A stretch of 50,175 nucleotides of DNA from Clostridiales bacterium (GCA_021205455.1 JAJPXL010000015.1:1-50175), one strand, 5' to 3'. Positions 40,794 through 49,004 are shown, counted from the first letter of the stretch. Numbers and translations: made by a program. The notes: generated from the letters alone by a model not told the origin.

Positions 40794-41810
40794 TCAGGCG
40801 ATATAGCCTCCCGCCACAAGCCAGTTTGCCTCGTCCCGCAGGGTGTCCTCATAGGGTCTGGTGTGATACCCCAGCTCCCGCTCGGCCTTGGAGTAGTCAA
40901 ACTGGTTATTCCTCGCCAGGTTGTAGACGGCGAAGTTGGTCATCATCGGCTTCTCACCGGTCTTTTCCGCCTTCTTCTCCATCTGCTCTGCCAACTTGTA
41001 GGCCATGCTGAGGGGGACATAGAAATAGGGCGTCTTGCAGCCGCTGGCGGCATGGAGCATATTGCACATCTCCTTCATGGTGACCTCCTCGTTGCCGAGG
41101 ATGTAGCATTCACCGGTGCGGCCTTTGTCCGCGGCGCTGACGCAGCCGTCTGCCAAGTCCCGCACATCACAGAGGTTGAAGGAGCCGCCCATGCCGATGG
41201 GCATCTGGCCGTTCATGATTTTAATCACCGTGCCGGTGGTCTCGCCGACGGCGTAATCCTTCGGGCCGAGGATGCCGCTGGGGTGCACCACGCAGGCATT
41301 CAGGCCGCGCTCCCGCACAGCGTCCAGAACGGCCTGGGTGGCCATTGCCTTGGATTTGCTGTACCAGCCGACGACCTGGTCGCTCTCCGCGTCGAAGTGG
41401 TCTACCTCCTTGATTTTCTGCCCCTTCGGCAGCTCCGGAATGGCGCCGGTGGAACTGACATAGACCATCTTCTGACATTCCGGATGCTTCAGGCATTGCT
41501 CAATCATGTTTTTGGTGCCGCCCACGTTGATGTCCAGGAGCTTCTGGCTGAAGTCGGCATTGGTCGTCACCATGCTGGCGCAATGGATGACGATGGTCTG
41601 CGTCCCCTCCGGGACGGTGAAGAACGCATCCAGCGATGCCATGTCGCAGAGGTTGCCCTCAATGATTTCTACCGCGTCGGGGACATACTTCACGGATTTG
41701 TCCCCGGGCAGCACCAGCGCCCGAACCTGGTCGCCGCGCTCCAGAAGCACGTCGCAGATATGGCTCCCCAGAAAACCGGCTGCACCGGTCAACAGATATA
41801 ATTGTTTCAT
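40794..41810 (-). CDS. NAD-dependent epimerase/dehydratase family protein
   Basis: About 338 residues. The extended SDR fold has TGAAGFLGSH (NAD-binding), the active-site Tyr in WYSKSK, HPSGILGPKDY, and DVRDLADGCV typical of dihydroflavonol-reductase-like and epimerase proteins. Two ATG codons lie side by side (41813 and 41810); the second is 8 bases from GGAG and is preferred. The substrate is unknown. Its stop is about 60 bases from the start of the 222-residue protein gene, so these may form one transcript. Confidence 0.92.
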   Translation of the reverse strand: MKQLYLLTGAAGFLGSHICDVLLERGDQVRALVLPGDKSVKYVPDAVEIIEGNLCDMASLDAFFTVPEGTQTIVIHCASMVTTNADFSQKLLDINVGGTKNMIEQCLKHPECQKMVYVSSTGAIPELPKGQKIKEVDHFDAESDQVVGWYSKSKAMATQAVLDAVRERGLNACVVHPSGILGPKDYAVGETTGTVIKIMNGQMPIGMGGSFNLCDVRDLADGCVSAADKGRTGECYILGNEEVTMKEMCNMLHAASGCKTPYFYVPLSMAYKLAEQMEKKAEKTGEKPMMTNFAVYNLARNNQFDYSKAERELGYHTRPYEDTLRDEANWLVAGGYIA

Positions 41811-41953
41811 CATGCTATCTCCTTCTTTACGGAATCGTAACGTTCCCTGGGCTCTCCCCCGGAACAGCTTCATTCTACGGTCGGAAGGTTGCATGAAAGT
41901 AAAAAAGAGTGGCAGAAATTGTGAACGGAGCAAAAAATGCAGGGCTTTTCTCC

Positions 41954-42988
41954 TCAGGTCAGCGGCAGGCAGACCGTGAAGGTGCTGCCCTCATTGGGCG
42001 CGCTCTGCACCTGCACGGTGCCGCCGCAAAGCGCGACGATGCGCGCCACAATGGAAAGGCCGATGCCGTTCCCTCGCACGGCGGAGACGGTGTCATGCTG
42101 ATAGTATTTTTCAAAGATGTGGGCCGCCGTCTCCTCGTCCATGCCGACGCCGCTGTCAGAGAAGGCGAGGACGAGTTCCTCCGCCGTCTGCTTGCCGGTG
42201 ACCATGATTTTGCCGTGTTCCGGCGTGAATTTGACCGCGTTGTTCAGCAGGTTGAGCCACACCTGCTCCATCAGCTCGGCGTTTCCGGTATAGCAGAGGT
42301 CGTCAATCTCCATCTCAAGCGAAATATCCTTCTGCTCCAGCTTGGGCAGCAGCAGGATGGCGCAGTGCCGGAGCTGCTCGGACAGGTCATAGCGCTCCTT
42401 CTCGGCGATGATTTCACAGGATTCCACCTTGGACAGCAGCAGCGTATTCTGGGCCAGGGTGGACAGCCGCAGCGATTCTTCCGAAATCACCTGCAAGTAC
42501 TGCATACGCTCCGGGCTTTCGATGCCCTCTCCTGTGTCCAGCAGATATTGGGAGAAACCGGCGATGGATGTGATGGGCGTTTTGAACTCGTGGGAAAACT
42601 CGTTGACAAAGCTCTGCATCTCCTGCTTCGTCTTTTTCAGCTCCGCCGTCATGCGGTTGAACCCCTGGTAGATGGAGGTATATTCTCCGGCGTTTCTGCA
42701 ATCCAGCTCTGTGTCCAAATCCCCGTCCGACACCGCTTGGATGCCGTCCAGCAGGGTACCCATTTTGCGGCGGATGGAGTGCAGGATGATGGCGGTACTC
42801 AGCCCCACGACCAGCACCATCAGCGGAATGATCGCCACCATGGAGAGCGCGTTCTCCTCCGTCATGCCGAGCCAGAATCTTGCGACTGCGCCGTAGGCCA
42901 TGACCGCACCGATTACAACAACACAGTCCACCGCGAAAATCCAACGGAACTGCACCAACCGGAAGCGGGGTCTGCTTTTACATATCAT
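41954..42988 (-). CDS. HAMP-type sensor histidine kinase
   Basis: 344 residues. Two membrane segments (about 18-37 and 49-70) with almost nothing between them outside the cell. A HAMP linker follows (about 70-120), then the phospho-accepting H133 in FVNEFSHEFKTPITSIAGF, and an ATPase domain with NLLNNAVKF, FSDSGVGM and GNGIGLSIV. The tiny outside loop suggests it senses the membrane or an inner partner, as in intramembrane-sensing kinases. It overlaps the regulator gene upstream by 11 bases. Confidence 0.94.
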   Translation of the reverse strand: MICKSRPRFRLVQFRWIFAVDCVVVIGAVMAYGAVARFWLGMTEENALSMVAIIPLMVLVVGLSTAIILHSIRRKMGTLLDGIQAVSDGDLDTELDCRNAGEYTSIYQGFNRMTAELKKTKQEMQSFVNEFSHEFKTPITSIAGFSQYLLDTGEGIESPERMQYLQVISEESLRLSTLAQNTLLLSKVESCEIIAEKERYDLSEQLRHCAILLLPKLEQKDISLEMEIDDLCYTGNAELMEQVWLNLLNNAVKFTPEHGKIMVTGKQTAEELVLAFSDSGVGMDEETAAHIFEKYYQHDTVSAVRGNGIGLSIVARIVALCGGTVQVQSAPNEGSTFTVCLPLT

Positions 42989-43673
42989 CTTGCGCGTCTC
43001 CCTTCTTGTGAATCACCGCCCTGTACCCCAGGCCGCGAATGGATGTCAGCTCAAACTCCGTACATTCCGAGCATTTGCTGCGCAGGCGGCTGATATAGGT
43101 CTTGATCGTGTCATATTCCGTCTCGGAGTCATAGCCCCAGACCTCGTCCATCAGCTGCTGCTTGGTGAACACAACGTTCGGGTAGGAGAGCAGCTTGTAG
43201 AGCAGCTGAAACTCCTTGTTGGTCAGCGGAATCGTCTTATCCCGATACCGGGCGGAAAAGGTGTCCTGCTCCATGGAAAACGCTCCGATGACGATGCGTT
43301 TCTCGTTTGCGATGCGGGCCCGGCGCAAAATGGCCTCGATTCGCCAAATCAGCTCCTCATAATCGATGGGCTTTGTCATATAATCATCCACACCGGCGGC
43401 AAAGCCCTCCTTTTTATGGGCGAAGGTGTTCATTGCCGTCAGCATGATTGCCGGCGTCATGTCTCCGGCCTCCCGAAGGGCGCGCATCAGCTCGTAGCCG
43501 TTCATCACGGGCATCTGGATATCCACAATCAGCAGGTCGATATGCTCATGGTCCAGGACATCCAACGCCTCCTGCCCATTGGCGGCTTCCACGATTCTAT
43601 ACCGCTGGCTGAGCTTGGTTTTCGTCAGCAGCCGCACCATCGCGTCATCCTCAACGACTAAAATTGTGACCAT
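42978..43673 (-). CDS. OmpR-family response regulator
   Basis: 231 residues. Receiver domain with VVEDD, phospho-acceptor D51 in LIVDIQMPVMNG, and KPIDYEEL. The winged-helix domain has LTNKEFQLLYKLLSYPNVVFTKQQLMDEVWGYD and IKTYISRLRSKC, ending SIRGLGYRAV. It is partner of the kinase encoded just downstream. A good extended -10 (TGGTATAAT, 43695-43700 on the minus strand) precedes it. Target genes are not evident in the window. Confidence 0.95.
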   Translation of the reverse strand: MVTILVVEDDAMVRLLTKTKLSQRYRIVEAANGQEALDVLDHEHIDLLIVDIQMPVMNGYELMRALREAGDMTPAIMLTAMNTFAHKKEGFAAGVDDYMTKPIDYEELIWRIEAILRRARIANEKRIVIGAFSMEQDTFSARYRDKTIPLTNKEFQLLYKLLSYPNVVFTKQQLMDEVWGYDSETEYDTIKTYISRLRSKCSECTEFELTSIRGLGYRAVIHKKGDAQDDM

Positions 43674-43778: not shown

Positions 43779-44312
43779 CTACAATTTGCTTTTCAGCAGC
43801 CCCAGCACGTCAGCGATTTTCTCCACCGGCTCAGGGTTTGCGCTGTTCAGCCAGTCATAGAGGACGGAAAAGGTGCCCTGAAAGACGAACTGACGGATAT
43901 ACTTCACATCTGTCTCCGAATAATAGCTCTCATCTATCATATTCTGAAAGATAACGCCGATGCTGGGGATGGCAAACAGGTGCGTGGAAAATTCCTGCAT
44001 GGGCACCGACCGCACCAGGAGGCAGAACAGCTCCCGCTGATCGTACAAATGCTGCAAAATCAGGGGCAGGGCATTGCAGCTTTGGGTGATGACCTGCTTC
44101 AATTCCTCGTCTAGCTGCCGGAGGAAGTCCATCTCGATTTCGTTCAGCAACTCCTCCTGGCTTCCATAATATTTATAGAATGTCGTTCGGTTGATCTGTG
44201 ACACCTTGCAAAGCTCGTAAACCGTGATTTGGCTCAGCGGTTTTTCCCTGAGCAGCTTGAGCAGCCCGGATTTCAGCATGGCCTTGCTGATTCGCACCCT
44301 CTGATTCTCCAT
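43779..44312 (-). CDS. TetR-family transcriptional regulator
   Basis: 177 residues. The helix-turn-helix (about 15-55) reads LKLLREKPLSQITVYELCKVSQINRTTFYKYYGSQEELLNEIE, the standard TetR recognition region. The C-terminal part is the ligand-binding, dimer-forming helices. It is divergent from the HXXEE operon with 176 bases between starts. That gap holds the promoter at 44411-44440 and several repeats that could be its operator, so it is likely the repressor of the HXXEE genes. Confidence 0.93.
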   Translation of the reverse strand: MENQRVRISKAMLKSGLLKLLREKPLSQITVYELCKVSQINRTTFYKYYGSQEELLNEIEMDFLRQLDEELKQVITQSCNALPLILQHLYDQRELFCLLVRSVPMQEFSTHLFAIPSIGVIFQNMIDESYYSETDVKYIRQFVFQGTFSVLYDWLNSANPEPVEKIADVLGLLKSKL

Positions 44313-44349
44313 CCTTCTGATTCACCTCGACAAATTTGTAAGAACTGTT

Positions 44350-44400
44350 GATTTTAACGCAAATGAACCCGTGTTTGTTGCCCACAAGGCATTTTAACGC
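44350..44400. repeat. Direct repeats ATTTTAACGC between tetR and the HXXEE operon
   Basis: ATTTTAACGC occurs at about 44350 and again at about 44391. TTGTTGCCCACAA between them is a short palindrome. These are candidate TetR operator elements. Confidence 0.4.
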
Positions 44401-44410
44401 CAACAGTCTG

Positions 44411-44440
44411 TTGACTTCAATCATCTTCGTCCATTATAAT
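44411..44440 (+). promoter_or_regulatory. Promoter of the HXXEE operon
   Basis: TTGACT (44411-44416), 18-base spacer, TATAAT (44435-44440), 49 bases before the first ATG. Confidence 0.65.
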
Positions 44441-44444
44441 AAAG

Positions 44445-44480
44445 CTACAGAGATTTGTCAACTATTCGCTCTGTAGGAGG
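44445..44480 (+). promoter_or_regulatory. Inverted repeat running into the ribosome binding site
   Basis: CTACAGAG (44445-44452) and CTCTGTAG (44469-44476) are perfect inverted copies 16 bases apart. The right arm shares its last two bases with AGGAGG (44475-44480). It is either a TetR operator after the -10 or an mRNA hairpin next to the ribosome binding site. Confidence 0.5.
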
Positions 44481-44488
44481 TTTATCAA

Positions 44489-45187
44489 ATGAAATTTTGG
44501 AGGCGGAACTGGTACCACATCGGCGGCATCCTCTTTGTGCTGCTGGCCTTCGGGATGGGGCTGTGGGGCTGCTATCATATGGATAAGCTCCGGGTCATCC
44601 TGATATTCAGCTGGATGGGGATGCTGATGCATCAGTTCGAGGAGTACGCTTTCCCGGGAGGGTTCCCGCTGATTTCCAACATGGCAGGGCTGGGGGAGAC
44701 GGAGCATCCGGAGCGCTACCCGCTGAACGCAAGGCAGAGCTTTGTGAGCAACGTCCTCTTCTGCTACCTGAGCTACATCATCCCCATCTGCTTCCCCAAC
44801 CTGGTTTGGATGGGCGCCAGCCAGGTGCTGGCCGGCGTGTGGCAGCTGCCGGGGCACGGCATCGCTATGAACGTGCGGCTGAAGAGCAAGTACAACCCCG
44901 GCCTGGCGTCCACGGCGGTTTTGCAGACGCCGGTGGCGATTTACTACATCTGGTACGTCTGCACCTATCTGCCGGAAAAGGCAGGGCAGCTCTGGTGGGG
45001 AATTCCCGGTTCCATTCTCATGCTGCTCCTGACCTTCATCGTCCCGATTCTGGTGATGAAGGACAAGGACTCCCCCTATCCCTTTGAGGAGCGGGGGCTG
45101 TATGGCTACAACAAGGAGCACGTAGCGGCGCTCTGGGAGGAGCGCAAGGCGGCAAAGGCCGCAAAGACTGCAAAGGAGGACAAATAA
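44489..45187 (+). CDS. HXXEE-family membrane protein, first of three
   Basis: 232 residues, about five or six membrane helices. It has the family signature HQFEE (H48, E51, E52) followed by FPGGFP, and a later conserved pair PGHGIAMN with YNPGL. The membrane-buried His and Glu residues suggest metal binding or catalysis, but the family's activity is unknown. It ends in a Lys/Ala tail. GTAGGAGG precedes the ATG, and the next gene follows two bases after the stop. Confidence 0.9.
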   Translation: MKFWRRNWYHIGGILFVLLAFGMGLWGCYHMDKLRVILIFSWMGMLMHQFEEYAFPGGFPLISNMAGLGETEHPERYPLNARQSFVSNVLFCYLSYIIPICFPNLVWMGASQVLAGVWQLPGHGIAMNVRLKSKYNPGLASTAVLQTPVAIYYIWYVCTYLPEKAGQLWWGIPGSILMLLLTFIVPILVMKDKDSPYPFEERGLYGYNKEHVAALWEERKAAKAAKTAKEDK

Positions 45188-45189
45188 CC

Positions 45190-45894
45190 ATGGTAAAAAA
45201 GCTGGACAAATGGTGCGACATCAACTGGATTATTTTTCTTTGCGTGACGGGCGTCGTCACCGGCGTGCTGTCCGCCGTCTTCTGGGACGAAATGCCCCTG
45301 GGGGCCCAGGGCGCGGTGTTTGTGGCAATGATCATGCCCTTCCATGTGCTGGAGGAGTGGAAGTTCCCCGGCGGCCTCCACATCTTCTATAACGTCCTGC
45401 TGGGGCCGAAGGAGAAGGAAAAGCAACAGCTGGACCGGTTCCCCATGAGCCGCCTGACGGACATGATCACCAACGTGGGGTTGCAGTGGATTCCTCTGTG
45501 CTATCTGGTGCTCAGCTTCTTCACCGGTCTGTCCAACGCCGCAGCCCTCTGCATGATGCTGCTGTGCTTCATCGAGGTGCTTGCTCACACCGGCGCCGGA
45601 ACGCTTACCTACTTCTGGCTGAGGAAGGACGGGAAGAAAACCATCTATCATCCCGGCATTGCCACCTCCTGGATGATGTTCCTGCCCGCGGGCGTCTACA
45701 TCGTCGCGCACCTGGAAAACGTCACCGGCAGCGACTGGCTTTGGGCAATCATCCTGTTCATCATTATGATGCTGATTTGCATTGTCCTGACGGAAACGCC
45801 GCTGAAAAAGTGGGTCTATAAGCAGGACAAGGACGTGTTCGCCTTCGCCGACGCCAAGTATTATGAGAAGTATCCCTCCTTCTGGAAGAAGTGA
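45190..45894 (+). CDS. HXXEE-family membrane protein, second of three (divergent)
   Basis: 234 residues. Signature HVLEE (H52, E55, E56) followed by WKFPGGLH; the second conserved pair is seen as LAHTGAGTL and IYHPGIAT. About six membrane helices. It is clearly related to its neighbours but more distant from them than they are from each other. It starts two bases after the previous stop and shares one transcript. Confidence 0.9.
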   Translation: MVKKLDKWCDINWIIFLCVTGVVTGVLSAVFWDEMPLGAQGAVFVAMIMPFHVLEEWKFPGGLHIFYNVLLGPKEKEKQQLDRFPMSRLTDMITNVGLQWIPLCYLVLSFFTGLSNAAALCMMLLCFIEVLAHTGAGTLTYFWLRKDGKKTIYHPGIATSWMMFLPAGVYIVAHLENVTGSDWLWAIILFIIMMLICIVLTETPLKKWVYKQDKDVFAFADAKYYEKYPSFWKK

Positions 45895-45909
45895 TTTGAG
45901 GTAGACGGT

Positions 45910-46602
45910 ATGAAATTCTGGAGACGATACTGGTATTGGATCGGCGGCGTTTTGTTTGTCCTCCTGGCTTTCCTGATGGGGCTGTGGGGCTGCGACCACC
46001 TGCCGAAGATCCAGGTGATTTTGATTTTCAGCTGGATGGCCATGCTGGTTCATCAGGTGGAGGAATACGGCTTCCCCGGCGGGATGCCGTCCATCACCAA
46101 CATGGCCGCTTTCCGGGAGAAGGAAGCGCCGGAGCGGTACCCCTTTAACGCGCAGCAGTGCTTTATCTGCAACGTGTTCCTGTGTTACGCCTTTTACATT
46201 CTGGCGATTTGCTTCCCCAATGTGATTTGGCTGGGAGCCTCTCAGGTGTTGTGCGTGCTGGTGCAGCTGGCGGCCCACGGCCTGCTCATCAACTTCTCGA
46301 TGAAGGAGTTTTATAACCCTGGCCTGGGTTCCACTGTGTTTTTACAGCTGCCTGTCGCCATCTATTATATCTGGTATGTCTGTACCACCATGCCGGAGAA
46401 GGCGTGGCAGCTCTGGATCGGCGTCCCCGGCGCGATCATTGCGATGCTCATTTGCTTCATCGCCCCCGTGCTGCTGATGCGCAGCCGGAAGAATCCCTAT
46501 CCCTTTGCCGAGGAAGAGATGTACGGCTATCATAAGGAAAAAGTGCTGGAAATCTGGCAGGACAGCAAACCTTCTATCCTGCAAAGGGTCGGTCTGAAGT
46601 AG
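45910..46602 (+). CDS. HXXEE-family membrane protein, third of three
   Basis: 230 residues. Signature HQVEE (H48, E51, E52) with YGFPGGMP, then LAAHGLLIN and YNPGLGS. The opening MKFWRRYWYWIGGVLFVLLAF nearly repeats that of the first gene, pointing to a local duplication with the divergent copy between them. It is 15 bases after the previous stop, and 21 bases before the EFR1 gene. Confidence 0.92.
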   Translation: MKFWRRYWYWIGGVLFVLLAFLMGLWGCDHLPKIQVILIFSWMAMLVHQVEEYGFPGGMPSITNMAAFREKEAPERYPFNAQQCFICNVFLCYAFYILAICFPNVIWLGASQVLCVLVQLAAHGLLINFSMKEFYNPGLGSTVFLQLPVAIYYIWYVCTTMPEKAWQLWIGVPGAIIAMLICFIAPVLLMRSRKNPYPFAEEEMYGYHKEKVLEIWQDSKPSILQRVGLK

Positions 46603-46623
46603 GAACACAACTGGAGGTGCAAA

Positions 46624-47436
46624 ATGGCTGAAAAAACCGTCATCTATTATTACTCCGGCTCCGGGAACAGCCTGTCTGTGGCGAAGCACATTGGCGAGAA
46701 GCTGGGGAATACGGATATTCTGTCAGTCTACACTCTGCGGGAGAATTCAGAGGTTCCACCGGACTATGCGAGAGTCGGCATTGTGACCGCCACCTGGTTT
46801 GTCCGCCCGCCGAGAATCGTGAGGGAAATGTGTGAAAAGCTGCGCATTTCCAGACAGCAAAAAGTCTTCATCATCGCCACCTGCGGCGGGTATGACGGCT
46901 ATGTCTGCATCGACCTGAAGGCCATTTTGCAGCCGAAGACGGACTTCCCGGTGCAGACCTTTATGCTCCCCATGCCGCCCAACCACATCGTCGGCTTCTC
47001 CCCCATGCCGGACGGAATCAACCGAATCTACCTGAACCATGAGGCGAAGTCCACCGGCAAAATCGCGGAGAAAATCCAATCGGGCGCACCGACCAGGAAC
47101 CGGAAGGGCATCAACCGCAAATTCCTCACCGGTGCCTCGAAATCCTTCAACAGCTGGCTGGGCGTGGACCGGGACAGCGTGGAGGGCGGCTTCTATGCCT
47201 CGGACGCCTGTACGAAGTGCGGCGTCTGTGAGAAGCTCTGCAAAAACGGGAACATCCACCTGACGGAGGACGGCGTCGTCTGGGGGCATGACTGCCAGCA
47301 GTGCATGGCCTGCATCATGTGGTGCCCGAATCAGGCCATTCGCCATCCCAACGTGCCGGAGAAGCGTCGGCGCTACCGGAACCCGAACGTCACGCTGAAG
47401 GATATGCTGCAATCGGAATTTCATGTGGGGGAATGA
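46624..47436 (+). CDS. EFR1 family flavodoxin-ferredoxin protein
   Basis: 270 residues. The N-terminal flavodoxin-like domain has YYYSGSGNSLSVAKHIGEKLG. The C-terminal ferredoxin domain has two cluster motifs, CTKCGVCEKLC and CQQCMACIMWCP, for two 4Fe-4S clusters. EFR1 proteins are common soluble electron carriers in clostridia. It probably passes electrons to the SDR or to the HXXEE proteins in this operon; the last is inference. Its stop overlaps an in-frame ATG of the next gene. Confidence 0.94.
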   Translation: MAEKTVIYYYSGSGNSLSVAKHIGEKLGNTDILSVYTLRENSEVPPDYARVGIVTATWFVRPPRIVREMCEKLRISRQQKVFIIATCGGYDGYVCIDLKAILQPKTDFPVQTFMLPMPPNHIVGFSPMPDGINRIYLNHEAKSTGKIAEKIQSGAPTRNRKGINRKFLTGASKSFNSWLGVDRDSVEGGFYASDACTKCGVCEKLCKNGNIHLTEDGVVWGHDCQQCMACIMWCPNQAIRHPNVPEKRRRYRNPNVTLKDMLQSEFHVGE

Positions 47437-47438
47437 GT

Positions 47439-48347
47439 ATGAGTTGGAACTTAGCGGATATACCGGGCCTTTCCGGCAAAGTGATGATCGTGACAGGCGC
47501 AAACAGCGGCCTGGGGTTTGAGACAACAAAGGAGCTGTCCCGTAAAGGTGCAAAGGTTGTGATGGCCTGCCGAAATCCGCAGAAAGCAGCTGCCGCCAGG
47601 CAAAAAATACAGGACGAGTATCCGGATGCGGATTTGGATACCATGCTTTTAGACCTTGCCAGCCAAAAAAGCGTTGCAGAGTTTGCAGATAACTTCATGC
47701 AGAATTACCATCGGCTCGATGTCCTCGTCAACAACGCCGGAATTATGGCGGCGCCGTATTCCGAAACCGTTGACGGGTTTGAAAACCACTTTGCAACGAA
47801 CTATCTCGGCCACTTTGCGCTGACCGGAAGGTTATTGGAACTGTTGGAGGCAACTCCCGGCGCAAGGGTCGTCAGCGTCAGCAGCCTTGCCTACTTTTTT
47901 GGAAATAAAATAGATTTTGACAATCTGTATTATGAGAATGGAAAGGGTTACGGCAGATGGAGGGCCTATGGGCGTTCCAAGATGGAAATGCTCCTGTTCG
48001 CCTACGAAATGCAGCGGCGTCTTACGCGCACCGGCAGGTCTACGCTTTCCCTTGCTGCACACCCCGGACTGGCGCAGACAAATATCATGCCGGCCCAGGC
48101 GAACAGTGCCTTCACAAAAAAGCTCTTAACGCAGGCTGCCAGCTTCCTTAAGCCAACCATCTATGGCGCAATGCCTCTGATCCGCGCAGCTACGGACAAG
48201 GAGGTCACGGGCGGCGAGTATTTCGGGCCGTCAAAGGACAGAATGCCGGATGTCGTCAAATCCAATAAAGCGTCCCACAATTTGGATACGGCAAAAAAGC
48301 TGTGGGAGGCTTCTGAAGAATTGACGGGCCTTCATTATTTGGATTAG
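47439..48347 (+). CDS. Short-chain dehydrogenase (retinol-dehydrogenase-like)
   Basis: 302 residues from the ATG at 47439, six bases after GGGGGA; an ATG at 47433 overlaps the previous stop but lies on the ribosome binding site. Motifs are TGANSGLG, NNAGIMAAP, catalytic Ser in VSVSSLAYFFG, and YGRSK as the YxxxK pair, with AHPGLAQTNI after it. This is the layout of retinol-dehydrogenase/WW-domain-oxidoreductase-like SDRs, which often act on lipid-like alcohols or ketones. It is last in the TetR-HXXEE cluster. The AT-content is slightly higher than its neighbours. Confidence 0.92.
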   Translation: MSWNLADIPGLSGKVMIVTGANSGLGFETTKELSRKGAKVVMACRNPQKAAAARQKIQDEYPDADLDTMLLDLASQKSVAEFADNFMQNYHRLDVLVNNAGIMAAPYSETVDGFENHFATNYLGHFALTGRLLELLEATPGARVVSVSSLAYFFGNKIDFDNLYYENGKGYGRWRAYGRSKMEMLLFAYEMQRRLTRTGRSTLSLAAHPGLAQTNIMPAQANSAFTKKLLTQAASFLKPTIYGAMPLIRAATDKEVTGGEYFGPSKDRMPDVVKSNKASHNLDTAKKLWEASEELTGLHYLD

Positions 48348-48440: not shown

Positions 48441-48929
48441 TCAAGGTGCGTCCTCCTGCGGCTCCGTTAAACTGTCCGCACACGCGCCTGGCTGGAAGTC
48501 TTTCAGCAGGTCATTTAACTCGTCCAGCAGGGTTCCCAGCGTCACCTGCTCCATGCTGCCTTTCATGGCGGTCACGGCGGCAAGCATATGGGGGTACAGG
48601 AGCTGATAGATGTTCTTCCCCACAGGGCAATCGCTGTCCGTTTTGTGGAGCTTGAACATCTCCTCCACGTCATTGGTCTCCACCGCCTGATAGACACCCC
48701 ACAGGGTGATGTCTTTCGGCTCCTTGGCGAGATGCACGCCGCCGTTCTTGCCGGCAGAGGCCGTCAGCAGGCCCTTTCTGGACAGGTCGAGGAATATGTT
48801 TCTGATTGTGACGGCGTTGGAGCCGGTGCTTTCCGCAACGAGGGTGCTTGTCACCCGACGTTTTGGCGACAGGACCGCCACATAGAGCAGCGCGTGAACC
48901 GCTGTTGGAAATTTCTTGCTGACACGCAT
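48441..48929 (-). CDS. Rrf2-family transcriptional regulator
   Basis: 162 residues from the ATG at 48929. The winged helix (about 5-65) reads FPTAVHALLYVAVLSPKRRVTSTLVAESTGSNAVTIRNIFLDLSRKGLLTASAGKNGGVHLAK. A single Cys lies at about 120 (DSDCPVG) and a further Cys in the tail, so a full Fe-S ligand set of IscR/NsrR type is not visible. It is divergent from the nitroreductase gene and likely binds the palindrome at 49030-49054. Confidence 0.92.
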   Translation of the reverse strand: MRVSKKFPTAVHALLYVAVLSPKRRVTSTLVAESTGSNAVTIRNIFLDLSRKGLLTASAGKNGGVHLAKEPKDITLWGVYQAVETNDVEEMFKLHKTDSDCPVGKNIYQLLYPHMLAAVTAMKGSMEQVTLGTLLDELNDLLKDFQPGACADSLTEPQEDAP

Positions 48930-48966
48930 ACAACCGCCTTCCCCTCTCAATATCAGTGCTGCTAAA

Positions 48967-48995
48967 AGTATAACAGATTTTTTCCGGAAAATCAA
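48967..48995 (-). promoter_or_regulatory. Promoter of the Rrf2 gene
   Basis: Minus strand TTGATT (48990-48995), 17-base spacer, TATACT (48967-48972), about 38 bases before the ATG. Confidence 0.65.
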
Positions 48996-49004
48996 TTGTA
49001 ACAC

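Follow-up and report, generated by a model that had tools for sequence, protein, structure and literature searches.

A TetR-Paired Array of Three HXXEE Membrane Protein Genes with EFR1 and a Carbonyl Reductase in a Clostridiales Bacterium

Organization of the Array

The DNA analyzed here is a stretch of 50,175 nucleotides (the window) from a gut-associated Clostridiales bacterium (GCA_021205455.1, JAJPXL010000015.1:1-50175). Between positions 43,779 and 48,347, it carries a TetR-family regulator gene and, divergently, five co-directional genes for three tandem membrane proteins of the HXXEE family (Pfam PF13787; HxA, HxB, and HxC), the iron-sulfur flavodoxin EFR1, and a short-chain dehydrogenase/reductase (SDR). 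All six genes had been named at these positions by an earlier sequence-only reading, and profile scores and motifs agree with it. Pairing of TetR with HXXEE genes was found to be family-wide, while the redox genes are clade-specific, and the locus is tentatively read as an inducible detoxification cassette. The TetR and HxA genes are 176 bp apart, and gaps of 2-21 bp separate the five genes of the operon. The features are as follows.

43779..44312, minus strand: TetR-family regulator (TetR_C_8; distantly DhaS-like), divergent from the operon; PF14278, 35.5 bits
44401..44414: predicted TetR operator, palindrome CAACAGTCTGTTG(A), overlapping the -35 box; from the upstream alignment
44411..44440, plus strand: sigma-70-type promoter with -35 TTGACT (44411-44416), an 18-nt spacer, and -10 TATAAT (44435-44440); read directly from the sequence
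44489..45187, plus strand: HxA, long-type HXXEE membrane protein (HQFEEY-FPGG) with six predicted transmembrane helices; PF13787, 61.6 bits
45190..45894, plus strand: HxB, long-type HXXEE protein of a separate deep clade (HVLEEW-FPGG); PF13787, 38.2 bits
45910..46602, plus strand: HxC, long-type HXXEE protein, sister paralogue of HxA (HQVEEY-FPGG); PF13787, 61.4 bits
46624..47436, plus strand: EFR1, electron carrier with a flavodoxin-like domain and two [4Fe-4S] clusters; NF038196, 186.3 bits
47439..48347, plus strand: SDR, NAD(P)H carbonyl reductase, retinol-dehydrogenase/protochlorophyllide-reductase (POR)-like (PRK06197); NF004846, 336.3 bits

The three HXXEE proteins match PF13787 above its cut-off of 25 bits, over profile positions 4-114 (HxA), 2-114 (HxB), and 3-114 (HxC). 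Against two relatives, ratios of nonsynonymous to synonymous substitution rates (dN/dS) were 0.03-0.065 for the HXXEE genes (HxA, 0.06; HxB, 0.06; HxC, 0.03-0.06) and about 0.1 for EFR1 and SDR. Purifying selection on the array is thus strong, and these low values indicate that the genes are real and that, among their products, constraint is greatest on the HXXEE proteins.

TetR, Operator, and Promoter

The C-terminal domain of the regulator matches TetR_C_8 (PF14278) above the cut-off of 26.1 bits, and its N-terminal domain lies at the threshold of TetR_N (PF00440; 23.2 bits against 24 by hmmscan, 25.5 bits in the genome search). The divergent placement of TetR is the same in nearly all related loci. 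The upstream regions of TetR-bearing loci, including those of Diplocloster agilis and Eisenbergiella tayi, share a palindrome with the consensus TCAACAGTCTGTTGA, present in the window as CCAACAGTCTGTTGA and overlapping the -35 box of a near-consensus promoter, which is itself conserved in the upstream alignment. In a pattern search of the bacterium's own genome, this was the sole perfect match. The palindrome is lost in a Helicobacter copy of HxA that also lacks TetR (locus L053). TetR presumably acts as the local repressor of the operon. The sequence-only reading had the set induced by a TetR ligand; the conserved operator bears out TetR control, while the ligand and derepression are presumed.

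The association of the regulator with HXXEE genes extends far beyond this clade. Outside close relatives, TetR is adjacent in about 16 of 23 long-type loci, against an expectation of about 1% (the own genome has 13 TetR genes in 2.67 Mb). Long-type HXXEE genes with TetR alone occur in Streptococcus-like genomes, Paenibacillus, Diplocloster, and Eisenbergiella; in the culturable D. agilis and E. tayi, TetR is accompanied by a tandem run of four HXXEE genes. The pair is also found on plasmids: divergently on Lactiplantibacillus plantarum pDMC-S1-B and Levilactobacillus brevis pLB1106-3, and with TetR immediately upstream of HXXEE on Paenibacillus polymyxa pPpO211. These plasmid pairs resemble the window in having TetR beside HXXEE, in a mobile context, but they hold a single HXXEE gene and have neither EFR1 nor SDR nearby.

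Recurrence and Horizontal Spread

The genome survey supports the linkage of HXXEE, EFR1, and SDR that the sequence-only reading had proposed. The array is present in 12 of 32 genomes of the genus, and in all 12 EFR1 adjoins it, while any EFR1 occurs in just 3 of the 20 others; in these counts, genomes from a single genus do not represent independent events, and since the close relatives are metagenome-assembled genomes, incomplete assembly may explain part of the pattern of presence and absence. In one of the genomes (G021), EFR1 comes after HxA and HxB, and HxC has no match there. Close relatives of HxA are rare in the bacterial family at large (5 of 200 genomes). A scan of the collection with HxA gave 43 loci; where flanks are present, TetR-HxA-HxB is near-constant, often together with HxC, EFR1, and SDR. 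In another genus of the family (L061 and L133), the same parts recur in a rearranged order, with an aldo/keto reductase (AKR): AKR-EFR1-TetR-HxB-HxB-HxC. Within this clade, then, the linkage is genuine, and it ties HXXEE genes to an electron carrier as well as a carbonyl reductase.

The HxA copy of Helicobacter sp. 11S02596-1 (L053, 8001-8684) is 77% identical to the Clostridia protein and lies near tad-type pilus/type II secretion genes, with a GC content equal to that of its flanks. It is a cross-phylum transfer. Together, the patchy distribution, the plasmids, and this copy in Campylobacterota indicate that HXXEE genes spread horizontally, as resistance genes do. On a Caballeronia plasmid (L169, 4974-5285), a short HXXEE fragment with 54% identity directly follows an HlyD/ABC/outer-membrane efflux operon. 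A search of phages found no HXXEE protein, and viral contigs yielded one, apparently frame-disrupted.

The HXXEE Proteins

In a deep alignment of diverse members, the three window proteins included, H48, E51, and E52 are conserved in 38 of 38 sequences and H123 in 40 of 40, so that the residues highlighted by the sequence-only reading hold beyond close relatives. The AlphaFold2 model of HxA has six helices (pLDDT 86.6, pTM 0.83). According to its helix boundaries, H48, E51, E52, N64, N88, H123, and the YNPG loop lie toward one membrane face, which also bears the N-terminus and most Lys/Arg residues (17 versus 3 on the other face, ten of the 17 in the C-terminal tail). From this distribution, the polar site in the HxA model is probably cytoplasm-facing, and probably binds a metal. 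One may speculate on a parallel to the HxxEH motif of inverted zincins, in which the ligands would be H48, E52, and, third, H123, and the base would be E51. Sequence searches found no relatives among solved structures; EXPERA/EBP and ceramidase-like folds were considered and gave no match.

In the tree, HxA and HxC are sisters (98/97 support), and HxB belongs to a separate deep clade (100/100). Tandem long-type pairs recur, and arrays of other lineages also combine an EEY-type gene with an EEW- or EEF-type gene. In one Streptococcus-like genome (L241, 6263-7612), such a pair beside TetR is read through as one protein of 449 aa with HxxEE in both halves. The mixed arrays and this fusion suggest that EEY-type (A/C) and EEW-type (B) paralogues form hetero-oligomers. 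The fusion is a single case that could be a recent loss of a stop codon; in the close relative L236, the two genes have stayed apart.

A fourth HXXEE gene, of the HxB clade, is present in the own genome (G000:C60:14614-14973; L134, 7838-8503). Nearby are genes for an aldo/keto reductase that matches 4Fe-4S weakly and for an uncharacterized protein of 337 aa, relatives of which recur beside stand-alone HXXEE genes (L138 and L139).

MucF and the Two Classes of PF13787

The sequence-only reading took HXXEE proteins to have no known activity. This does not hold for the family as a whole, because MucF, an annotated HXXEE protein of the Streptococcus mutans muc cluster, strips the N-acyl chain from reutericyclin (PMC10161427; PMC9112991). 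Deacylation was demonstrated both in vivo and in lysate of E. coli, and the tests extended to 17 homologues; MucF expressed in E. coli is active without any of the partner genes of the present locus (PMC10161427). A literature search under "PF13787" found no paper, and one under "EFR1 family" found nothing related.

Approximately 100 PF13787 members were compared. As a stand-in for MucF, the HXXEE protein of a muc-like cluster in a Streptococcus-like genome (L234) was used, chosen by cluster organization and length (167 aa, against 0.5 kb for the published gene) and not by the published sequence. This cluster comprises a condensation-adenylation-carrier nonribosomal peptide synthetase (NRPS), a ketosynthase (KS)-carrier-thioesterase protein, two TetR genes, and a major facilitator superfamily (MFS) transporter. 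Members of the MucF class are about 157-200 aa long (typically about 170) and combine HxxEE with HxxxH and a second EE; of the 64 non-PGG sequences, 56 have the second EE and/or HxxxH. In a 13-sequence alignment including the L234 protein, E59, E60, H90, and H94 are invariant in this class. The window class is longer (about 205-235 aa) and has HxxEE[Y/W/F]xxPGG, Asn88, and Gln/Glu119-xxx-His123. The tree separates the two classes with 100/99 support, while H48, E51, E52, and H123 are invariant across both.

MucF and the window proteins thus have in common the Pfam family, a small polytopic membrane protein, neighboring TetR genes, the invariant H-x-x-E-E, a downstream His, and Y-x-P-G. They differ in size (about 170 against about 230 aa) and in motifs (second EE and HxxxH against N and Q/ExxxH plus PGG). 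The partners also differ: MucF is encoded by a single gene among NRPS and polyketide synthase (PKS) genes, whereas the window has an array of three with EFR1 and SDR. By sequence comparison, the window class is a homologue of MucF with half of its polar residue set. Direct transfer of the name "deacylase" to the window proteins was considered and rejected as a matter of class membership, since they have neither HxxxH nor the second EE. A MucF-class HXXEE gene of the Streptococcus-like genome G889 is at most about 200 bp away from a mercury-resistance (mer) segment that is 99% identical to Enterococcus faecium plasmids (L126, 5971-9341).

EFR1, the Carbonyl Reductase Slot, and Other Neighbors

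EFR1 of the window scores far above the NF038196 cut-off of 75 bits, and its motifs are intact: the flavodoxin loop SGSGN at 11-15 and CX2CX2CX3C at 196-206 and 224-234, which make up two complete [4Fe-4S] motifs as in the EFR1 family. No second EFR1 was found in the own genome at E<=1e-20, and the protein is uncommon in the class, with 23 copies in 79 genomes. Unlike the window gene, the other EFR1 copies sampled in the class lack an HXXEE neighbor within the short flanks covered, and EFR1 as a universal partner of HXXEE was rejected on this ground. Genome G011 has half an EFR1, the flavodoxin part only, 3 bp upstream from an HXXEE gene in divergent orientation (L135, 4884-5963).

The SDR exceeds the NF004846 cut-off of 268 bits and keeps the TGANSGLG and YGRSK motifs of PRK06197-type enzymes. 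It differs from them in lying inside an HXXEE operon and in being exchangeable. The slot after EFR1 is filled by SDR in 15 loci and in 8 by an aldo/keto reductase that is not homologous to it and ends in a 4Fe-4S domain; no locus has both, which points to carbonyl reduction. Nitroreductases of two types are common at related loci. EFR1, the exchangeable carbonyl reductase, and the nitroreductases appear to form a clade-specific reductive arm.

Further genes flank the array.

40794-41813, upstream of TetR: HpnA-like/3-beta-HSD-type NAD-dependent epimerase
41954-43673, upstream of TetR: histidine kinase/response regulator pair
48441..49004, minus strand: Rrf2-family regulator, a frequent downstream neighbor; PF02082, 93.6 bits
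49069..49599, plus strand: nitroreductase, a frequent downstream neighbor; PF00881, 68.1 bits

The full upstream flank, epimerase and two-component genes together, is kept in L030 only, and the Rrf2-family regulator is kept in L024, L030, L042, L056, L058, and L065. A copy of the nitroreductase with 87-90% identity lies near the array in many relatives and possibly belongs to the reductive arm. Downstream of the nitroreductase, SIR2-like and PARG-like genes occur in L023 (12773-15967) and L024 (6117-9611), possibly a separate ADP-ribose-related module; some relatives add a YcgN-like cysteine-cluster protein.

What the Locus May Do

An inducible detoxification cassette that includes hydrolysis by the window class is the explanation we favor, tentatively, because its TetR-HXXEE core, which is homologous to an antibiotic deacylase, is mobile and patchily distributed and appears to be inducible. 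The mechanism, which is moderately supported, would run as follows. TetR on the operator overlapping the -35 box would repress the operon until a small, probably amphiphilic molecule, probably a foreign or toxic chemical, releases it. The three HXXEE proteins would be six-helix enzymes of the cytoplasmic membrane, with H48-E51-E52 and H123 forming a site that is buried close to the cytoplasmic face and probably binds a metal. By analogy with MucF, they would most likely act as hydrolases on a membrane-soluble antimicrobial or xenobiotic, cleaving an acyl bond (amide or ester). EFR1, SDR (or the AKR-4Fe4S protein), and nitroreductase may follow by acting on that compound or its product, reducing carbonyl, enone, or nitro groups. 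The EEY-type and EEW-type paralogues probably work as a hetero-oligomer. Several results weigh against the hydrolytic step. The second EE or HxxxH is present in none of 35 PGG-type sequences; the window proteins lack the second EE (E59/E60) and the first His of HxxxH, and have Asn88 and Gln/Glu119 instead. Their identity to MucF is about 15-19%, and profile-profile comparison of the two classes gave a probability of 7.8%, yet both score above the PF13787 cut-off. The fold of the HxA model has no match in PDB or BFVD, and a hydrolase activity of the long-type class is argued from the MucF analogy.

The main rival takes the array for a membrane redox enzyme, in which a redox metal held by the long-type residues (H, E, E, Q/E, H) is fed by EFR1 and reduces or desaturates a lipophilic substrate or lipid that SDR or AKR also acts on. 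It accounts well for EFR1 beside the array in every array-bearing genome of the genus, an adjacency that is not chance given the scarcity of EFR1, for the same parts in the rearranged L061/L133 order, and for the flavodoxin half-protein next to another HXXEE gene; the loss of MucF-class residues would also fit a changed chemistry. However, long-type arrays with TetR and no EFR1 nearby occur in L050, L057, L236, L241, L249, and P. polymyxa, which speaks against an obligate redox role of HXXEE proteins, and MucF hydrolyzes its substrate without partners in E. coli lysate (PMC10161427). On balance, this rival appears unlikely. A more specific combination, in which the long-type (PGG) proteins would constitute a second class of membrane metalloenzyme with a chemistry of its own, working as an EEY/EEW hetero-oligomer and here as an EFR1-driven, TetR-induced reductase of a lipophilic toxin, is unlikely. 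Equally doubtful is a loose association, in which TetR and HXXEE are the functional unit and EFR1, SDR/AKR, and nitroreductase are co-travelling stress genes acting on other compounds. The stable TetR-HXXEE core amid variable, clade-specific redox genes, and the faster evolution of EFR1 and SDR, would agree with it, but the redox parts recur rearranged in another genus, the slot is preserved through the exchange of SDR for AKR, and the genes are tightly spaced in the window.

The lipid-modifying pathway proposed by the sequence-only reading is very improbable. It would suit the membrane location of the HXXEE proteins, the retinol-dehydrogenase/POR-like subgroup of the SDR, and the HpnA-like epimerase upstream, but no acyltransferase, desaturase, lipid-synthesis gene, or other lipid-specific gene was seen to recur in the neighborhoods with the array, and the distribution is patchy with signs of transfer. 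A steroid/hopanoid pathway, suggested by the epimerase, was rejected, as that gene is kept in just one other locus (L030). The family-wide pairing with TetR, together with the clade-specific redox genes, argues for a detoxification cassette rather than a lipid pathway.

Implications

PF13787 is still labeled as a family of unknown function, though one of its branches is a demonstrated antibiotic deacylase. A second branch is defined by the present locus: its residue set differs, an operator is predicted, reductive partners recur, and tandem pairs and one fusion occur. These features make the window class directly testable. If it does detoxify antimicrobials or drugs of the gut, the cassette would be a mobile trait of resistance or drug metabolism in gut Clostridia, one that has crossed into Helicobacter.

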